Shown here: positions 5,296 to 22,518 of the stretch, in pieces
Numbering within the stretch: position 1 is the stretch's first letter
Layout of the letters: the number at the start of each line of letters is the position of its first letter
From: Deltaproteobacteria bacterium
GTDB lineage: Bacteria; Desulfobacterota; Desulfarculia; Adiutricales; Adiutricaceae
NCBI GenBank assembly: GCA_031257535.1
Contig: JAIROO010000135.1
Coordinates: 1-37,201 of the forward strand
Direction: 5' to 3'
Length of the DNA: 37,201 nucleotides
Notes under the pieces: model-generated
Databases searched by the model: none
Seen by the model: only the letters and a program-made list of their open reading frames with translations
Told to the model about the DNA's origin: nothing
Position numbers and translations under genes: made by a program

Positions 5296-5371
5296 GGGGA
5301 TGTAGCTCAGTTGGGAGAGCGCGGCGTTCGCAATGCCGAGGGCAGGGGTTCGAACCCCCTCATCTCCACCA
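5296..5371 (+). tRNA. tRNA-Ala, anticodon CGC, CCA encoded
   Basis: ggggatg...catctcc acceptor stem, GCTCAGTTGGGAGAGC D-arm, CGGCG-TTCGCAA-TGCCG anticodon arm, GGGGTTCGAACCCC T-arm, 3' ACCA. Confidence 0.95.
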
Positions 5372-9350: not shown

Positions 9351-9383
9351 AAAGACTCTTTTTAACCAAAAATGGAGGTCATA

Positions 9384-10952
9384 TTGAGTGGTATTTGGTG
9401 TTTTATCAAACACTCTAAAATAAAAAATTGGACTAATTTAGAAGAGACCTTCGCCCATAACGCGCGTCTAGTCGAGGTCGTTAACGCCGACCAAAAGCGG
9501 ACTCGCCTAAACCAGCTTTTATTAGGCCCGGAAGCTCTGGATCCTAAGGCTTATTGTTTAGAAAGGCTAAAAGGCCAATCTATCCACTGTAACCAAATTT
9601 TGGCTACCGCGATGATCTTGGAAACTAGCCCTGAGTTTTTTCGACCAGGCCGGGTCAGCGAGCCAGGCTTATATTTTCCAGAAAAACTGGACCCTTGGGC
9701 ATTAGCTAGCCAAAAGTGGCTGACCACGACATTTGGCGATTTAGCCTTTAGCGCCTATTTGCATTTAGACGAGGTCACGCCTCATATCCACGCGCTAATT
9801 ATTCCTCTTAAACCGTCGGGAACTCTTTCATGGTCTTCAATGTTTAGACCGTACAAGCTCCTAGAGTATGGTCAAAGCTACTTTAGGTCCCTTCAACATT
9901 TGGGCGTCCAAAGATATGGCGGCCGAGCGCCGGTCGCGAAAACCCAAAAGCGCGTCAATTATTACCCTTACGTCGAGCGGGCGAATTATCCCAACCTCTT
10001 TTTAAAACCGTTTATGGCCCCCGCGCTTAATTGGCCCCCTAAAATTTCAAGTCTTTGGCCCTTTACGCCCGAGAAAATCGTTATGGAGGCTTCTTTAAAG
10101 GCTTTGGCCTTAGAGAGTCAAACCCTTTTAGCCCGGATCGAGAGCCAAAAAGCGATCCTGGCCCTAGAAAATCGCCAGCTTAAGGCCTTTATGGATAAAG
10201 TTTACCTAAGGTTTGAGGCTCAACAAAAGGCCAAAAAACTCCAGTATCTCCTTGACGACAAATTATTTAAGCATTGGTTGGCCACGACTCCGGGCGTTAT
10301 GTCGGATCCAATGGCCTTAGCTCCTCGGAGATCTTACCTCGAAACAAAGCGTCCGACTCTTAACCCGCCTGTTTTATCGACCCCAAAAGCGACCAAAAAA
10401 TTGGGGAAAGTTCTAGCTGTTACAACTTATCGGGCTTGGAGTTCGCCCGAGTTTGAAGGGTTCTTTCAGATAGGCTTTACAAAGTTCAAAGTTGGCCCAG
10501 GCTCATATTGGCGGGATTTGACTAATCAGGTCCAAGGTCAAGGTTCTATCGCCTTTTTTGCGAGCCTTTTAGACTATTCAAGCGCGCAAACTCAACAAAT
10601 CGTTAATTTAATTGCCAACTATAAACAAATATCAAGAATTTCAAATCATCCACAACAAATTTTAGCCCGGTGTCTGGCCGTCGACCTCGTTCGCCAAGCC
10701 CCCCTAAAACTAGCTCATTCTCTCAAATTACTTCCAGAGGATCCGAAAAAAAAACTCGACCCCAAGGAACTGGAAAAGCTGGAACTGGAAAAAAAGGCCA
10801 AAATCAAAATGTTGTTCGATTCCGCTAAACCTCTGTATTGGCCTGTTCAGAAAAGCCAGAGCGCGCCTTATAAGGAGCCCCAAAAAAAGATTCCGCTTAA
10901 GCCTTTGTTTGAGCCTACATTGGACCCAGACCACCCAAAAATGAAGTTCTAA
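9384..10952 (+). CDS. MobV-family (Mob/Pre) plasmid mobilization relaxase
   Basis: Motif I HNARLVEVVNADQKRTRLNQLL (compare HNERxxE...SxxNxxL of MobM-type relaxases) and metal-binding HLDEVTPHIHALIIPL. Start revised from ATG 9372 to TTG 9384 because GGAGGT lies at 9374-9379. Confidence 0.88.
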   Translation: MSGIWCFIKHSKIKNWTNLEETFAHNARLVEVVNADQKRTRLNQLLLGPEALDPKAYCLERLKGQSIHCNQILATAMILETSPEFFRPGRVSEPGLYFPEKLDPWALASQKWLTTTFGDLAFSAYLHLDEVTPHIHALIIPLKPSGTLSWSSMFRPYKLLEYGQSYFRSLQHLGVQRYGGRAPVAKTQKRVNYYPYVERANYPNLFLKPFMAPALNWPPKISSLWPFTPEKIVMEASLKALALESQTLLARIESQKAILALENRQLKAFMDKVYLRFEAQQKAKKLQYLLDDKLFKHWLATTPGVMSDPMALAPRRSYLETKRPTLNPPVLSTPKATKKLGKVLAVTTYRAWSSPEFEGFFQIGFTKFKVGPGSYWRDLTNQVQGQGSIAFFASLLDYSSAQTQQIVNLIANYKQISRISNHPQQILARCLAVDLVRQAPLKLAHSLKLLPEDPKKKLDPKELEKLELEKKAKIKMLFDSAKPLYWPVQKSQSAPYKEPQKKIPLKPLFEPTLDPDHPKMKF

Positions 10953-13875: not shown

Positions 13876-15027
13876 ATGGAACCGAACCAACAATTTATTC
13901 AAAACTTGATTCGGTCGCGGAAAGCCAAAGGCTTAAGCCAAAAAAATTTGGCCGACGCCTTAGGTTGCGCTTTATCGTTTATCCAAAGGATAGAACGCGG
14001 AAAAACCGTTCCCGATATGGAAGTGATTTTCGCGATAGCGAAAGCCTTAGACGTTATGTCTTACGAACTTTTCCAGGAAATTCGAGAACTACGCTCCGTC
14101 CGCTTCCGTTCATATAAAAAAATCAACCCCGCGCTGAGAGAAACAATACTCGCCCACGCGGCGGTCGATCTTGATTCTTTCCTTTTCCTTGAGGACCTTC
14201 TAGAAGACAAGATACAGTTTCGCCTGGCCAACATAATTAAACGCGGCCATTTCCAAAGCCCCGCGGAAGCGGCGCGTCAATGCCGAAAAGAGTTAGGTCT
14301 CAATCTAACCGAACCTATCTACGATATATGCGGTCTAATGGAAAAATCGGGCGTGAAAGTTATCCCTCTATCCATTCCTTCCGATGATTTTTTTGCCTTG
14401 TCTATAGGCCCGACTGATGGCGGGCCAGCCGTTGTCTTAAACGTTTGGGAAAAAATTACCTTGGAAAGGCAGATTTTCAGCCTCGCCCATGAACTAGGCC
14501 ATCTCGTTTTACACCCTGACGACTACGTCCAAGGTCTTCCAGAGGGAACTAAGGACGACAAAAAACAAGAAAAGGAGGCTAATAGTTTCGCCGGACATTT
14601 TCTTATGCCAAACGATGGTTTTTTCCAGGAATGGAAAAAGTATCATGGGATGAGCTTCGTCAACAACGTCCTTAAAGTCAAATGCGTTTTCCACGTTAGC
14701 TATCAAACCGTTCTCTATCGCCTTTACGAAAATAGCAAATTCAAAAATTTTAGCGCCTTTCGGGTAAGATTCATGACCGATTTTGAAACCATTTATGGTT
14801 ATAAACTCGGCCATAAAGACGACCCCCCCTGTCATTCGCCAGAGTACTGTAACGTCCAAACGCCTGAACCTTTCGAATCGCCAAGGATAAATTTTTTTGA
14901 CGGCCGCTTTAAGCTTCTGCTTAGAAAGGCTCTTAGCCAGGGCAAAATTTCCATTAGCCGCGCCGCGGAGATACTCAGGTTCAGTATGGAGAAAATGCGC
15001 GATTTAGTCTTTAGTTGGCGGTATTAA
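13876..15027 (+). CDS. XRE-family HTH fused to ImmA/IrrE-type (M78/DUF955) metallopeptidase
   Basis: IRSRKAKGLSQKNLADALGCALSFIQRIERGKTVPDMEVI (HTH_XRE) and FSLAHELGHLVLHPD (HExxH zinc peptidase) with the EKEANSFAGHFLMP follow-on motif. Confidence 0.95.
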   Translation: MEPNQQFIQNLIRSRKAKGLSQKNLADALGCALSFIQRIERGKTVPDMEVIFAIAKALDVMSYELFQEIRELRSVRFRSYKKINPALRETILAHAAVDLDSFLFLEDLLEDKIQFRLANIIKRGHFQSPAEAARQCRKELGLNLTEPIYDICGLMEKSGVKVIPLSIPSDDFFALSIGPTDGGPAVVLNVWEKITLERQIFSLAHELGHLVLHPDDYVQGLPEGTKDDKKQEKEANSFAGHFLMPNDGFFQEWKKYHGMSFVNNVLKVKCVFHVSYQTVLYRLYENSKFKNFSAFRVRFMTDFETIYGYKLGHKDDPPCHSPEYCNVQTPEPFESPRINFFDGRFKLLLRKALSQGKISISRAAEILRFSMEKMRDLVFSWRY

Positions 15028-15551
15028 AATTGACGCGTCTAAAGGAGACTTCTACTCCCCCCAAAAAATCTATAATCATGGACGCAAATATCGTAATCGA
15101 CTTTTTTGACGTCAAACCTGAGTTCTTAGGCTTGACAGTCAATTATTTCGCGCCCATTTATGTAATAAAAAATGTTTTGGAAGAGACTAAAAATATTGAT
15201 ATAAATAAATTATTATCATTTGGAGTGATTATATTAGAGACAAAAATCCCTGACTCTTTTAATGATTATAAAAAAACATTATCAATGACTGACCGTTTAT
15301 GCCTGCTAACCGCTAAACAATATGACCGCGTTTGCGCTACCAACGACAAGGCTCTCCGGAAATCTTGTGAACGTGAAGGGGTTCCAGTTATTAGGTGCCT
15401 TAAGCTAGTCTTCGAGCTGTGTAATGCCGAAGTAATCAAAAAAGATGAGGCCGTTGCTTTCGCCAGGGCTTTAAACAAGACCAATCCATATTTTACAGAC
15501 GATATAATTAAAACATTTTTTGATTCTATATTTAATATAGATATCAAATAA
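15015..15551 (+). CDS. PIN-domain-like protein (putative RNase toxin)
   Basis: SIIMDANIVIDFFDV (first Asp motif), VLEETK, MTDRLCLLTAK, RVCATNDKALRKSCEREGV (PIN motifs). Overlaps the upstream XRE-peptidase gene by 13 bp if the TTG start is used; ATG 15078 is an alternative. Confidence 0.75.
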   Translation: MAVLKLTRLKETSTPPKKSIIMDANIVIDFFDVKPEFLGLTVNYFAPIYVIKNVLEETKNIDINKLLSFGVIILETKIPDSFNDYKKTLSMTDRLCLLTAKQYDRVCATNDKALRKSCEREGVPVIRCLKLVFELCNAEVIKKDEAVAFARALNKTNPYFTDDIIKTFFDSIFNIDIK

Positions 15552-15850
15552 TTACTCATATCGAAAAATTTTATATACAAGTTGCAATATGTTTCTGTAA
15601 TAATTATAAAATATACGTTATTTACGCCTTTAAGCCGCCTATCCTAAAACTTTCCGACGCGGACTTAAAAAAATCAACCCCGAACAGGCCGCCAAATGTT
15701 TTTTCGTTAAACGCTTTACCGAAGATGACCGGTAAAGCCTAAGTATTTAACGACGTGTTGGATTATCTTTACCAGGTTTACGCCTTTAGCCACCAATAAA
15801 TGCCAAGGAGCCTCCATCGCGCTTTTGACGAAAGACTCTAAAACGACCAG

Positions 15851-15985
15851 GACGCTCTCGCGTATTATCGCGTTTCAAGCCGCCGTCAGGAACAAACGGC
15901 ACTTATATCGCTTAGGTTTGTCAAAAAAATTCTATCGGGGTTGGTTAAGGTTCCAACGACGAACTGAGAATAGCGGCCGCTTAAA
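15851..15985 (+). pseudogene. Possible serine-recombinase N-terminal remnant
   Basis: Frame reading gac gct ctc gcg tat tat... = DALAYYRVSSRRQEQTALISLRFVKKILSGLVKVPTTN*, resembling the resolvase N-terminal strand with YYRVS. No intact ORF. Confidence 0.35.
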
Positions 15986-16715
15986 AAAAAAGGCTTACGT
16001 TCTAAAAAAACCTGGCCCTTAAAAAACTCACCCTAAAAAAAATTGAGCTAAAACAAAGTTCTAAGGCAATTTTCCGCCAAAAAGGCCCTAAATTTGTCCC
16101 CCGCTTAAAAAATAGGCCTCCCTCAAGGGCATTTATAAAAAATTATTATTTTCAACTATTTAAATTTCGAATAAATAATTTTTAGACCTACCCCTTATTC
16201 TTTTTCAATCAAGGGGTCTTAGCCTTTCGTTCGCTTAATCGTCCCCTTTTTATTCTAAGCTCAAAATTCAATTTTAAGCTTTCAAAATATAATAAAAATT
16301 TAGGATTATTTATTTTTTAAGACCCAAAACCCTTGGTAACTTATTTCCTTCCCTCCCCTTATCTTAAGGTCCCAAAAAAAATTTTGTGTCAATAAATTTC
16401 CTTGACTATTAAATTTTTTTATGATATTAATCTTTCAGCTATAGGCATTTATAATAAATGTCTTCGAGCCTAATCCTCTATAAATGATTTTTTTTTGGGT
16501 TTAAACTAAATTTTGGCTTTTCCAGTTCGCTTTTTTTTGGTTTTTTGGCCCTTTTTGGCTATTGGCTTTTTATTTCGCGATAAAAGCCCTTTTTAGCCTT
16601 TCGCGGCTTTTTTTCGCTTTCTTATTGACTCCTGGCCAGACTCTCGTTGGTAGCCCTAAATAGGTCAGGCTTTTTTTACTTCGCGCGTTAAATTTAGGGT
16701 TTTCCGCGCGCTACT

Positions 16716-16759
16716 TTCGCGGCTTATTGGTTTAATAGTTCTTTTTCTTGGGCCGCGAA
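16716..16759 (+). other. Inverted repeat (hairpin) TTCGCGGC...GCCGCGAA
   Basis: 8-bp perfect arms at 16716-16723 and 16752-16759, followed by the palindrome GGGAGCGCGCGCTCCC at 16769-16784. Confidence 0.7.
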
Positions 16760-16845
16760 CGCGTTTTTGGGAGCGCGCGCTCCCTATTCTTTTTAAGGCC
16801 ATAATCCGGATTTTGGCCCAGAACGCTTTTCGCCTGGCCACCATC

Positions 16846-16909
16846 GCTAGCCCTTTTCGTCCGCCTCCGCCCTTTGAAGGCGAAAGGCCGGCTTAAAGGA
16901 TGACCGCCC
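16846..16909 (+). ncRNA. Candidate structured element, copy 1
   Basis: GCTAGCCCT...CGCC-CTTTGAA-GGCG...AGGCCG...AGGATGACCGCCC; compare copy 2 at 17175-17241. Confidence 0.3.
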
Positions 16910-17066
16910 TGGGGGTCGGTATCTGTTCATTCGTTAAAGTTAACGCTCTTTGTTTGTCTTTTCTCTTTAAACGTTTTGTTTTTAGGGCCTAAAATAAAGG
17001 GCTTAAACCTAATAATCCGTCCACCGTTTTAGGCTTATTTTCTGGTAGCTTTTAATGGTTGATCGC

Positions 17067-17102
17067 CTCGCGACTTATAAAGACTCGTTTTATCGTCGCG
17101 AG
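17067..17102 (+). other. Inverted repeat CTCGCGAC(tt)ATAAA...TTTAT(c)GTCGCGAG
   Basis: 8-bp outer plus 5-bp inner perfect arms, read directly. Confidence 0.75.
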
Positions 17103-17174
17103 CGTGTTTGTTTCGGGACGATTGTTATGGGTCTTAAGATAAGCCAAATAAGCGCGTCCACGCGTATAGCCGTC

Positions 17175-17241
17175 GCTAGCCCTATTAATGGCGTACCGCT
17201 AACCTTTGAAGTTAGTAGGCCGACCGACAGGATGACCGCCC
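17175..17241 (+). ncRNA. Candidate structured element, copy 2
   Basis: GCTAGCCCT...CTAAC-CTTTGAA-GTTAG...AGGCCG...AGGATGACCGCCC; same loop as copy 1 with different but complementary stem bases. Confidence 0.3.
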
Positions 17242-17627
17242 CGGCCTTTTTGCTGGACCGTCGATAATGGCTGACCCAGAGCTTACCCCTTTTGGTCTAG
17301 TTTTTGGCCTGTTTAAAGCCGCTGTTTTCGCGGCCTTAACTCCTTTTTTTTTCTAAAAAACGGGCCATGTTTTTTTTTGACTCTCGCGCCTTTTGGCGAT
17401 TTCGCCAAAAGGCGCCAAAGCCTTGATTTTCTAAGGGTCTAGCGAGCGGCTTTTCGCTTTTTTAAGGCTGACCAAAATAATAGGCGACCAGTTTTTGGCC
17501 CCTTTTTGTTTTTTGGTTTTCGGCCACTTAAAAGGTCCCTTTTATAGTTTTTATTCGCGGCGCTCTTTGGCTTTTTTAGCGAACAAGACGCGCGGGTTTA
17601 AGGATATTAGTTTTAAGCCTTGTTTTT

Positions 17628-17765
17628 GGCTCTGGCCTTGGCTGGCTCTTTTTGTTGGCTAAAGCTACGGCTTTGGCTCTTTTTGGCTTACCCCGGCTTT
17701 GCCTCTTTTTGGCTCTAGCCACGGCTTTGGCTCTTTTTTGGCTGCCACGGCTTTGGCTCTTTTTT
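17628..17765 (+). repeat. Tandem repeat, 26-29 bp unit GGCTnnnnCACGGCTTTGGCTCTTTTT, about 5 copies
   Basis: Unit starts at 17628, 17657, 17685, 17711, 17740, each ending in GGCTCTTTTT or a near variant. Confidence 0.85.
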
Positions 17766-18325
17766 GGCCTGATTATTAAGGTTTTTGACGCTTAATGACT
17801 TTAAAATCCGTTTTTAGGGTTTTTAGGCGCGTAAAACCTTTATTTTCGCCGGCGCCTATTTTGGGCGTTTTTAAGGCTAAAGGTCTTGGCTTAAAACTAT
17901 TTTTTAAGGAACGACTTTTTCTCGCTATGGGTGCCTTTTTTTAAGCCGCCCATGGCTAGTTCCTTATTTACGTCCTCGCTTTCAATTCCCCCCGCGTTTT
18001 CTATTCGCCTTTTTGGTTAGCCTTTTTTCTCGCTAAAAGCGTCGTTTTTACTCCATAAAATTTTTTTAGGGCCCGGGTCGCCAAATTATTTAGACTCTTT
18101 ATCTCATTTTTATCTGTTTTTTTGTCGATTTTTTGGCGTTTTATTGGCTTTTTGTTTAATTAAAGTAGCTCTATTTTTGGCTTTATATTTGTTTAGCTGT
18201 AATCTAGCTATTTTTGATCGCCTAAAATAGCGCTCTTAATGGCCTTAAAACCATTATCTATAAGGCGTTATCTAGCCAACTTAACGTCGCCCTAATTCGT
18301 CTGACCCTTTTTAGGAGTTTTTCAT

Positions 18326-18838
18326 ATGTCGGTCGTAGTTTCGCCCTCTAACCCCCCTGAACCCGTCAGCCCCCACGCTTTGGAGTTGGCGGCTTTAGAG
18401 CCTATCTTTGAGACTTACCAAAACGCGGCTAGGGGGTCCTTAATCCCGGTTCTCCAAGCCGCCCAAGAAACTTACGGATATCTGTCGACCACGGTTTTAG
18501 AGACCATCGCCTCTCGTCTTAATTTTCCCATCAGCCAGATCTACGGGGTGGTCACCTTTTATTCCCAGTTCCGCTTAGCCCCTAGGGGCAAGCACGTTAT
18601 CCGAGCCTGCCAGGGCACGGCTTGTCACGTCCGCGACTCCTCTTTGGTCTTAGAGACTTTAAAGTCCGCCTTAGGGGTCACCCCCGGCGGGACGACCGCG
18701 GATCTTCAGTTTACCTTAGAAACCGTGGCCTGTATTGGGGCCTGTAGCTTAGCCCCGGTCATGATGATCGACAACGAGGCTCACGGCCGTCTGCGCCCTG
18801 ACCGCGTTCGGGCCATTTTAGACAAGTACCGCGGGTAA
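18326..18838 (+). CDS. hydC: NAD(P)-dependent [FeFe]-hydrogenase NuoE-like subunit (HydC/HndA)
   Basis: PVLQAAQETYGYLS, VYGVVTFYSQF, ACQGTACHVR, CIGACSLAPVMMID thioredoxin-like [2Fe-2S] motifs. Confidence 0.93.
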   Translation: MSVVVSPSNPPEPVSPHALELAALEPIFETYQNAARGSLIPVLQAAQETYGYLSTTVLETIASRLNFPISQIYGVVTFYSQFRLAPRGKHVIRACQGTACHVRDSSLVLETLKSALGVTPGGTTADLQFTLETVACIGACSLAPVMMIDNEAHGRLRPDRVRAILDKYRG

Positions 18839-18855: not shown

Positions 18856-20766
18856 ATGAGAAAACTAGAAGATCTGCCTCGCTTAAATGGAGTCATGGAT
18901 CTCGAGGCCTTAAAAAGCCGCGTCTTACCCAGGATCGCCATTAGGCGCGACCCCAAAGCCGCTCCCTTTAACGACGTCACCCATCACGTCATGATCTGCG
19001 GCGACACTGGCTGCGCCTCCTCGGGCTCCAAAGCCATAATTGAGACCTTTAAAGAGGAGTTGGCCGCCCGCAATCTCGACAAGACCGTGGACGTGGTCGT
19101 GATTGGTTGCCACGGGTTTTGCGAGATGGGCCCTTTACTGGTCGTCTATCCCGACGACTTTTACTACATTCGGCTTAAACCCGACGACGTGGCCGAGATC
19201 ATTGAGGAGACCATTATCCATCGGCGCCCGGTCCCTAAGTTTTTGTATCACGACCGGGAGACCATGCGCCCCATCGTTCATTACCAAGAGATCGAGTTTT
19301 ACGCCAAACAAAACCGGATTCTTTTGGCTAATTGCGGGCACATAAACCCCGAGGACGTGGAGGAGTACATCGCCAACGACGGGTATAAAGCCTTAGCCAA
19401 GGCCTTAAGCCGTCGCGACGACCCTTTAAGCCTTTTGGAGGAGATCAAAAAATCCGGTTTAAGGGGCCGGGGGGGCGGAGGTTTTCCGACCGGTCGTAAA
19501 TGGGAGCTGTGTCGCGAGGCCCCAGGCGACGTTAAGTACATTATCTGTAACGCCGACGAGGGCGACCCCGGGGCTTTTATGGACCGCTCGCTGATGGAAG
19601 GCGACCCTCACCGCCTTTTAGAAGGCATGATTATTGGAGGTTTAGTCATTGGGGCCAAGGAAGGCTACATCTACGTCCGGGCCGAGTACCCAATCGCCGT
19701 TAAACGCCTTAAAAACGCCATCGCCCAGGCCGAGGCTTTAGGTTTACTGGGCGACAATGTCTTGGGCACGGACTTTTCTTTTAAGATCTTCGTCAAAGAA
19801 GGAGCTGGGGCCTTTGTTTGTGGGGAGGAAACGGCCTTAATCCACTCCATTGAGGGTCAAAGGGGCATGCCCACCTCGCGGCCTCCATTTCCAGCGGTCT
19901 CTGGCCTGTGGGGTCAGCCCACCAACAACAATAACGTGGAAACTTGGGCCAACGTCCCGGGGATCATTTTACGCGGCGGAGAGTGGTTCGCCTCCTTTGG
20001 CACGGAAAAATCTAAAGGGACCAAGGTTTTCGCCTTAACCGGCAAAATCCGCAACACCGGTCTCGCCGAAGTCTCCATGGGCCTGACCATGCGGGAGATT
20101 ATTTACGACATCGGCGGGGGCGTCCAAAACAACAAAAAGTTTAAAGCCGTCCAGATAGGTGGCCCGTCGGGCGGTTGTTTGCCCGAGTCCATGATCGATA
20201 GGCCCGTTGACTACGACTCCCTCATCGAGGCGGGAGCCATGATGGGCTCAGGAGGTCTAGTGGTCGTGGACGAGGACACTTGTATGGTGGCTCTCGCTCA
20301 GTTCTTCTTGTCCTTTACTCGGGACGAAAGCTGCGGCAAATGCACCCCTTGTCGCGAGGGCACCACCCGGATGCTCAACATCTTAAATAACATCACCAAA
20401 GGTCATGGCAAAGCCGGGGATATCGAGCTACTCGAAGAACTAGCCAAAAACATTAAGATCTCGGCCTTGTGCGGTTTAGGCCAGACCTCGCCTAACCCCA
20501 TTCTCTCGACCTTAAACTACTTTCGGGAAGAGTATAAAGCTCACATCTACGAAAAACGCTGTCCCGCCCATCACTGCGTGGCCCTCATTAGCTACTGGAT
20601 CGACCCAGACCGCTGTATTGGCTGCGGGGCTTGTCGGAAAAAGTGTCCGGTCCAGGCCATTGACGGCTCCGCTAAAAAACCCCACACCATCGACGTCGGC
20701 AAATGCATTAAATGCGGGGTCTGCTTTACGGCCTGCCGCAAAACCCGCGCCATCTTTAAAAAGTGA
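18856..20766 (+). CDS. hydB: [FeFe]-hydrogenase NuoF-like diaphorase subunit (HydB/HndC)
   Basis: N-terminal [2Fe-2S] CGDTGCASSGS; SGLRGRGGGGFPTGRKW; ADEGDPGAFMDRSLMEGDPH; ESCGKCTPCREGT; two C-terminal 4Fe-4S motifs. Confidence 0.96.
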   Translation: MRKLEDLPRLNGVMDLEALKSRVLPRIAIRRDPKAAPFNDVTHHVMICGDTGCASSGSKAIIETFKEELAARNLDKTVDVVVIGCHGFCEMGPLLVVYPDDFYYIRLKPDDVAEIIEETIIHRRPVPKFLYHDRETMRPIVHYQEIEFYAKQNRILLANCGHINPEDVEEYIANDGYKALAKALSRRDDPLSLLEEIKKSGLRGRGGGGFPTGRKWELCREAPGDVKYIICNADEGDPGAFMDRSLMEGDPHRLLEGMIIGGLVIGAKEGYIYVRAEYPIAVKRLKNAIAQAEALGLLGDNVLGTDFSFKIFVKEGAGAFVCGEETALIHSIEGQRGMPTSRPPFPAVSGLWGQPTNNNNVETWANVPGIILRGGEWFASFGTEKSKGTKVFALTGKIRNTGLAEVSMGLTMREIIYDIGGGVQNNKKFKAVQIGGPSGGCLPESMIDRPVDYDSLIEAGAMMGSGGLVVVDEDTCMVALAQFFLSFTRDESCGKCTPCREGTTRMLNILNNITKGHGKAGDIELLEELAKNIKISALCGLGQTSPNPILSTLNYFREEYKAHIYEKRCPAHHCVALISYWIDPDRCIGCGACRKKCPVQAIDGSAKKPHTIDVGKCIKCGVCFTACRKTRAIFKK

Positions 20767-20775
20767 GGCCCCCCT

Positions 20776-22518
20776 ATGAGCGAAAAAGTATCTTTAACCA
20801 TCGACGATCTCCCGGTCACCGTCCCTCAAGGCGTGACCATCTGGGGGGCGGCCCAGACTTTAGGCCTAAAAATCCCCACTTTATGTCATCACTTTGACGT
20901 TAAACCCTATAGCGGCTGCCGGGTCTGCGTGGTCGAGGTGGTTGGCTCCAGAGCGTTGGTGGCCGCCTGCTCGGGCCCAGTCGCCGAAGGCCTGGTCGTT
21001 AAAACCAACTCCCCGAAAGTTAGGGAGGCCCGGCGCTTAATCGTCGAACTCCTTTTAGCCAACCACCCCAGGGACTGTTTTACCTGCCCTCGAAACCAAA
21101 GCTGCGAGCTCCAGACCTTAGCCTTAGAGCTGGGAGTCAGAGAAGTGAGGTTTGAGCAGGACAAGCCAACCTGGGAGTTAGACGAGTCCTCGCCTAGCTT
21201 AATCCGCGATCCCAATAAGTGCGTTTTGTGCGGTCGCTGCGTTAGATTCTGCGCCGAGATCCAGACCTGCTCGGTCTACACCTTCGCCAATCGGGGTTAT
21301 AACTCCATCGTCACCACGGCCTTTGGTCAGGGTTTAGGCGAGGTTCGCTGCACGCTCTGTGGCCAGTGCTCGGTGGTCTGCCCAGTGGGGGCCATCACCG
21401 TTAAAGACCACACGGAATATGTCTTAAACGCCATTAACAACCCCGACAAAATAGTCATCGTCCAGACCGCCCCGGCGACCCGGGTGGCTTTAGGCGAAAC
21501 CGTAGGTCTCCCTCCGGGCTCCATCGTGACCGGTAAAATGGTGGCGGGTTTAAAACGCTTAGGCTTTGACCGGGTCTTAGACACCAATTTTACGGCCGAC
21601 GTCACCATCATGGAAGAGGCCACCGAGTTTCTTCATCGCTTGAGCGAAGGCCATAATCTGCCCATGATTACCAGCTGCTCTCCGGGCTGGATCAACTTTT
21701 TAGAGATGTTTTACCCGGAAATGGTCGAGCTCCACTCCACCTGTAAAAGCCCGCAGCAGATTTTTGGGGCTTTGGTCAAAACTTATTACGCTAAGATTCA
21801 AGGCTTAGATCCAGCTAAAATCGTCTCCGTGGCCATCATGCCTTGCGTGGCTAAAAAGTTTGAGAGCGTTCGGCCCGAGATGAACGCGAGTGGCTACCAG
21901 GACGTGGACTACGTTTTAACCACCCGAGAACTGGGCCTTTTATTAAAGTCCAGTGGTTTAGACTTAAAAACCCTAAAACCCGAGGCCTATGACCCCATCA
22001 TGGGCCTGGGCACGGGCGCCGGGACCATCTTTGGGGTCACGGGCGGGGTCATGGAAGCGGCCTTACGAGCGGCTTACGAGTTAGTGACCAAAAAAACCTT
22101 AACTAACGTGGAGTTCAACGAGGTCCGGGGTTTGACGGGGATTAAGGAAGCGGAAATAGATCTTGACGGAACCAAAATTAAGGTCGCCGTGGGCCACGGC
22201 TTAGGTCGAGCCCGCCAGATCATGGAAACCATCAAAGCCGGTAACCCCCACGGCTGGAGTTTTATCGAGGTCATGGCCTGTCCGGGCGGGTGCGTGGCCG
22301 GGGGTGGCCAACCCATTAGCCTGGATCTGGCTTATCGGAGCAAAAGAGCCAAAGGCCTTTATGAGGACGACCGCAATCTGCCTTTACGCAAAAGCCAGGA
22401 CAATCCCGAGGTCCAAGCCCTATACCGCGATTATTTAAAGGAACCGGGCGGGGCTTTAAGCCATCAGCTTTTACACACGAGTTTCGCTAACCCCCACGAG
22501 CGGTTTATAAAATCTTAA
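20776..22518 (+). CDS. hydA: [FeFe]-hydrogenase catalytic subunit (HydA/HndD)
   Basis: H-cluster motifs TSCSPGWINFLE, MPCVAKKFE, EVMACPGGCVAGGGQP; N-terminal [2Fe-2S], HPRDCFTCPRNQSCEL cluster and two 4Fe-4S clusters. Confidence 0.98.
   Translation: MSEKVSLTIDDLPVTVPQGVTIWGAAQTLGLKIPTLCHHFDVKPYSGCRVCVVEVVGSRALVAACSGPVAEGLVVKTNSPKVREARRLIVELLLANHPRDCFTCPRNQSCELQTLALELGVREVRFEQDKPTWELDESSPSLIRDPNKCVLCGRCVRFCAEIQTCSVYTFANRGYNSIVTTAFGQGLGEVRCTLCGQCSVVCPVGAITVKDHTEYVLNAINNPDKIVIVQTAPATRVALGETVGLPPGSIVTGKMVAGLKRLGFDRVLDTNFTADVTIMEEATEFLHRLSEGHNLPMITSCSPGWINFLEMFYPEMVELHSTCKSPQQIFGALVKTYYAKIQGLDPAKIVSVAIMPCVAKKFESVRPEMNASGYQDVDYVLTTRELGLLLKSSGLDLKTLKPEAYDPIMGLGTGAGTIFGVTGGVMEAALRAAYELVTKKTLTNVEFNEVRGLTGIKEAEIDLDGTKIKVAVGHGLGRARQIMETIKAGNPHGWSFIEVMACPGGCVAGGGQPISLDLAYRSKRAKGLYEDDRNLPLRKSQDNPEVQALYRDYLKEPGGALSHQLLHTSFANPHERFIKS

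Follow-up and report, generated by a model that had tools for sequence, protein, structure and literature searches.

TRAP and CsrA, as well as put and other antitermination elements, provide examples of multivalent protein sites in bacterial leaders. GGA is exposed in CsrA sites, and T-box leaders carry the antiterminator motif AGGGUGGNACCGCG. Tandem riboswitches (glycine, c-di-GMP-I, Moco/Wco and further classes) also repeat a structured module within a leader, and the accessible text of a survey of such arrays (PMC9481103) reports a tungsten-cofactor class upstream of ferredoxin hydrogenase genes and names four aptamers as its largest same-class array. A likewise repeated module is described here from the leader of a putative hydrogenase operon, present twice in the window (the whole stretch of 37,201 nt analyzed, on contig G000:C198 of the 3.7 Mb draft genome G000). 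Unlike the tandem riboswitches, this module has no Rfam riboswitch match, reaches up to six copies in relatives, and has no expression platform visible beside the copies. The two window blocks are best explained, at a probability of about 0.7, as two occurrences of a new structured RNA that acts in cis from the hydABC 5′ leader and probably controls expression. Comparison of its sequences shows the element to be a structured RNA of a family not listed before; the broad kind to which it is assigned, the cis-regulatory leader RNAs, is known, but its copy number is unusual.

Identification and distribution of the element

The original prediction placed two look-alike blocks of a possible structured RNA, matching no known family, at 16846-16909 and 17175-17241 of a gene-free region. 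Both blocks are present at these positions, and 15552-18325 contains no ORF of at least 100 aa. A repeat search of the window aligned 16871-16912 with 17203-17244 at 76% identity, and comparison of the leader with itself by BLAST found a 76-nt match at 72% (E about 9e-6). The order GCTAGCCCT, CTTTGAA, AGGCCG, AGGATGACCGCCC is common to both copies, and the CTTTGAA loop is closed by CGCC/GGCG in copy 1 and by CTAAC/GTTAG in copy 2, as had been proposed. The equal spacing that had also been claimed applies to the other gaps, which are 6 nt in both copies, but not to the gap from GCTAGCCCT to CTTTGAA, which measures 17 nt in the first copy and 20 nt in the second. The strong hairpin noted before each copy (TTCGCGGC/GCCGCGAA at 16716-16759 and CTCGCGAC/GTCGCGAG near 17067-17102) exists in the sequence but shows no sign of membership in the conserved unit. 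The CTTTGAA loop and AGGCCG occur in some copies only and lie outside the conserved part. Against Rfam 15 at the gathering threshold, the window gave only a tRNA at 5296 and eight related loci gave nothing; the best sub-threshold matches over the region (E 0.059 to 9.4) were chance-like. Nor was a matching RNA motif before hydrogenases or in these metagenome-assembled genomes (MAGs) found among open-licence papers.

A search for homologues in related genomes, suggested with the prediction, showed that the element recurs and that the repeat is well beyond chance. BLASTN of 16700-17320 against 60 related genomes produced one clear genome, G004, with matches at three successive places, and weaker matches in G003. 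Scanning with the core pattern gave matches in G001, G002, G003, G006 and G014; in G000 its only matches were the two window copies. A first covariance model (R1), built from ten copies, located arrays in 7/7 genomes of genus g1 and in G014, which belongs to the sister genus g9, and a second (R2), run on 41 genomes of the order, again returned these eight, besides two weak hits (E 0.013 and 0.057). The model hits numbered 34 (window 2, G001 4, G002 4 with one weak, G003 5, G004 4 with one weak, G005 6, G006 5 and G014 4), and 32 copies could be read cleanly. One further, diverged copy precedes a second hyd operon in G005; it scored 18.5 bits with R1, which was not trained on it, and 42.8 bits with R2, whose training set includes it. 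Copies per hyd leader thus ranged from 1 to 6 among relatives. Judging from isolate codes, the array-bearing bacteria are apparently termite-gut MAGs, and hydrogen turnover is central in the termite gut.

With R2 at E ≤ 0.01, no further genome with the element was found among about 295-297 sampled genomes of the phylum, and model and pattern searches revealed no convincing copy in the rest of the order or outside the phylum. Weak covariance-model hits in other genomes of the family (E 0.01 to 1 per genome) were attributed to chance, given 37-41 genomes. The hydC upstream regions of 18 further family genomes, some of them shortened by contig ends, contained no array. Two of these regions (L086 and L091) show other repeats; L091:1740-2080, from G012 of genus g7, is a different tandem hairpin-like array (GGCGGGCTGAAGCYANCCCTYCGCC...) about 2 kb upstream of hydC, with a GCYAGCCCT-like half in common with the element and without GGAWGACCGCC. 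Chance was likewise judged to account for the pattern matches from other phyla and from phage contigs: 0/13 of those inspected fold as drawn, and 12/13 lie in stop-free frames of at least 258 codons, the exception being L155 (longest frame 57). The remaining outside hits were judged by model score alone (12.8-34.6 bits, in sequences whose core the pattern had already selected). By eye, the phage hits appear to read as the DNA cytosine methyltransferase motif PCQPFS.

Secondary structure and covariation

Across the 32 copies, which come from eight genomes, a variable outer stem (P1) leads into an asymmetric internal loop that forms the conserved core, and this is capped by an inner hairpin that again varies. 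The core consensus is UCGCYAGCCCU / AGGAWGACCGCC, with UC-GC-YAGC-CCU on one strand facing AGG-AWGACC-GC-CC on the other, and most loop positions are invariant or nearly so. The innermost P1 pair (-3/+3) is standard in 32/32 copies (GC 24, AU 3, UA 2, CG 2 and GU 1), has changed in several ways (AU, UA, CG) in different genomes, and ranked first in unguided scans in which columns were compared by RNAalifold-type covariance and by APC-corrected mutual information. Other P1 pairs vary with compensation, with a frequent one-base bulge at +6. In helix 2 (CCU/AGG), 99% of cells are paired, and one copy carries CCA/UGG instead.

For the complete 12-pair structure, 83% of cells are standard, compared with 73% in shuffles and 33-50% in slid registers. 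It outperformed all slid registers and, in each of cells paired, double changes and covariation, was matched by 0/500 shuffles, a control that ignores relatedness; copies of one array are not independent because they have partly arisen by duplication. Outer arms folded with their own partners at -10.3 kcal/mol and with swapped partners at -6.6 kcal/mol (z = -8.8; 0/20,000 permutations). Inner hairpins had a mean z of -1.7 relative to dinucleotide shuffles, and in some copies contain a second recurring block, CCGCCAAC...GTTGGTAGG. Within the limit set by related copies of the same array, these pairing tests are independent evidence for the predicted structure, and the covariation supports the structured-RNA reading of the original prediction. 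In G005, L083:5106-5835 alternates between elements with inner GGTTAGAGCGGCCC and elements with inner CCGCCAACCC; duplication of a unit of two elements apparently enlarged this array.

Table 1. Positions of the leader features and downstream genes in the window. The covariance model (CM) scores given for copies 1 and 2 are partly by construction, because both copies belong to the R1 and R2 training sets.
Feature	Position	Strand	Basis or remark
Promoter-like TTGACT-N17-TATTAA, with TTGTCAA/TTGACA-like dyad over -35	16402..16430	+	Equivalents in all g1 hyd leaders
Element copy 1 including outer stem P1	16834..16921	+	CM 78.6 bits (R1), 74.3 bits (R2); BLAST matches in G004; pairing tests
Copy 1, P1 5′ arm	16834..16843	+	Pairs with 16910-16919; innermost pair A16843-U16910; pairing tests
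Copy 1, core 5′ strand TCGCTAGCCCT	16844..16854	+	Columns (near-)invariant in 32 copies
Copy 1, variable inner hairpin P3 bearing the CTTTGAA loop	16859..16892	+	Folding test
Copy 1, core 3′ strand AGGATGACCGCCC	16897..16909	+	Columns (near-)invariant in 32 copies
Element copy 2 including outer stem P1	17163..17253	+	CM 70.8 bits (R1), 70.2 bits (R2); 86% identity over 78 nt to a G004 copy
Copy 2, core 5′ strand TCGCTAGCCCT	17173..17183	+	Columns (near-)invariant in 32 copies
Copy 2, inner hairpin CTAAC/GTTAG around CTTTGAA	17196..17216	+	Several relatives read CCGCCAAC...GTTGGTAGG here
Copy 2, core 3′ strand AGGATGACCGCCC	17229..17241	+	Columns (near-)invariant in 32 copies
Pyrimidine-rich spacer from array to first gene	17254..18325	+	Not alignable with most relatives
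NuoE-like subunit (HydC), putative regulated gene	18326..18838	+	PF01257, E 3e-51; NuoE models
HydB-like subunit	18856..20766	+	Pfam 51K/Fer4; PDB matches including electron-bifurcating HydB, E 2e-245 and 3e-235
HydA [FeFe]-hydrogenase subunit	20776..22518	+	PF02906; best PDB match electron-bifurcating HydA1 8a6t, E 6.5e-198

Genomic setting

The genes downstream of the array, homologues of HydC, HydB and HydA in a row, match a predicted HydABC-type electron-bifurcating hydrogenase. Throughout g1, the array precedes the NuoE-like gene in sense orientation; next come a HydB-sized ORF and HydA, to the extent that the contigs were read, and the orientation of the copies is always that of hyd. The array contig of G014 ends about 440 nt past the last copy and its hyd contig starts about 350 nt before the gene, and no overlap was found between these ends; because of the contig breaks between array and gene, the G014 array likely, rather than certainly, adjoins the hyd operon. 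Elsewhere, 0.3 to 1.1 kb separate the end of the array from the hyd start codon.

A promoter-like sequence of the TTGACA-N17-TATTAT type with a TTGTCAA dyad precedes the first core of every g1 leader; the candidate in G014 is poorer than those of g1. In the comparison of leaders, two stretches recur across most genomes, namely this block and the element array, the spacer being mostly unalignable. Both are retained while the ORFs upstream of the leader vary between genomes. At 16385-16430 and the equivalent g1 sites, a conserved dyad, TTGTCAA-N8/9-TTGACA, spans the -35 and is a possible operator. The sense strand of the spacer at 17254-18325 is strongly T-rich and A-poor (41% T, 17.5% A) and contains repeated TTTTTGGC units; the pyrimidine bias is strong in G000 and weaker elsewhere.

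Possible functions of the array

As a cis-acting element, the array would be transcribed within a leader starting at the conserved promoter-like sequence, one trans factor would bind separately at each core, and the several sites would jointly set how much transcript is completed or survives. Against this cis-leader reading stand the distance from array to gene, which is unusual for a riboswitch, the lack of a terminator platform near the elements, and the narrow taxonomic range. The putative trans factor could be a small metabolite or ion, as for a riboswitch, or a protein, with roughly even odds between the two.

An array of riboswitches, in which each core would be an aptamer for a hydrogen- or redox-linked small molecule or ion and the repeated copies would steepen or grade the response, is a possible but tentative explanation. 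A conserved aptamer-like element with covarying stems is found upstream of a gene, and conserved unpaired internal-loop nucleotides between freely covarying stems are the usual look of a small aptamer; the existence of tandem riboswitches and of the tungsten-cofactor class before ferredoxin hydrogenase genes, both taken from the accessible text of the survey (PMC9481103), also speaks for it. Terminator-like hairpins, however, were not commoner than in shuffles of the nine leaders scanned (in the window alone, scanned more loosely, 12 were observed and 5.7 expected), and the leader scan gave no consistent terminator after the array. The element is also restricted to a single operon type in a single narrow clade, and its six copies exceed the four of the largest same-class array named in the survey text. 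Of the known classes, the T-box resembles the element in the order AGG...ACCGC on one strand of a bulged helix, as in AGGAWGACCGCC, but the aligned copies read AWGACC where a T-box would have the UGGN bulge for tRNA pairing, their other strand is a conserved GCYAGCCC, a consistent terminator is lacking, and no Rfam T-box match was obtained. Two further classes were rejected by inspection: the kink-turn, as the second strand has no GA, and the hammerhead or hairpin ribozyme, whose core letters are absent.

Equally tentative is an array of protein sites, where an RNA-binding protein on each core would, through multivalent binding, stabilize the leader or permit read-through by polymerase. The up to six copies, the absence of a local platform, the long leader and the narrow clade fit such an array, as does the precedent of multivalent protein sites in bacterial leaders, but no candidate protein was found. 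CsrA was considered: G000 has a CsrA gene, and the several AGGA-containing hairpins resemble CsrA leaders and CsrB-type sponges. CsrA nevertheless fits poorly because the AGG is paired to CCU, so that no exposed ANGGA was found in a hairpin loop; moreover, conservation extends far beyond GGA, one copy has GAA, and CsrA binding would leave the rest of the core unexplained.

A more specific proposal, that the element is a new RNA sensor of hydrogen or redox state with up to six receptors setting bifurcating-hydrogenase expression in these gut bacteria, must be considered doubtful; a reduced cofactor, a metal cluster, formate and a redox protein are examples of what it might sense.

The promoter-like sequence, the distance to the gene and the repetition of one module would also suit a separate non-coding RNA gene before hydABC that acts in trans, for example as a sponge. 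This is improbable because the element accompanies hyd throughout g1, with G005 carrying it at each of its two hyd operons, and because in the array-bearing genomes (drafts of 64-96% completeness) R2 hits at E ≤ 0.1 are confined to hyd leaders or the broken G014 contig (in G000, to the two window copies); the lack of a consistent terminator after the array also tells against it.

Very unlikely is a repeat acting at the DNA level, without RNA function, such as a REP- or MITE-like sequence, an integron attC-like hairpin or a protein-binding DNA site. The element resembles REP/BIME and MITE sequences in being palindromic, repeated and intergenic, and the arrays partly grew through unit duplication, but in the array-bearing genomes it is not dispersed, occurring at hyd operons only, always in the one orientation sense to hyd, with asymmetric core strands that are both conserved and with compensatory pairing. 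Inspection for attC sites found no GTTRRRY ends.

The decayed coding repeat offered as an alternative in the original prediction, on the grounds that both window copies, read in one frame, give a similar RMTA stretch, can be dismissed because the spacing is not in threes (the halves are 18 to 60 nt apart, with 15/10/7 copies at 0/1/2 mod 3) and each frame contains a stop in 20-26/32 copies, while the ATG of AGGATGACC, also rejected as a start codon, is AAG in several copies.

The preferred reading, a cis-acting leader element, gives a structured RNA family defined comparatively and tied to one key enzyme of hydrogen metabolism in bacteria apparently of the termite gut. The occurrence of 1 to 6 copies in close relatives provides a natural series for testing why regulatory RNA modules are repeated, and the narrow target makes identification of the ligand or protein tractable.

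Flanking genes

Between a GSDH gene and the hyd leader, window positions 13876-15551 encode an HTH + M78 protein (ImmA/IrrE, spr1629-like antitoxin) and a 178-aa partner; in G004, the interval from the GSDH-like gene to the leader lacks such ORFs of 120 aa. Farther upstream in the window, a 610-aa ORF without a Pfam match adjoins a Mob_Pre (plasmid recombination) gene at 9372-10952.
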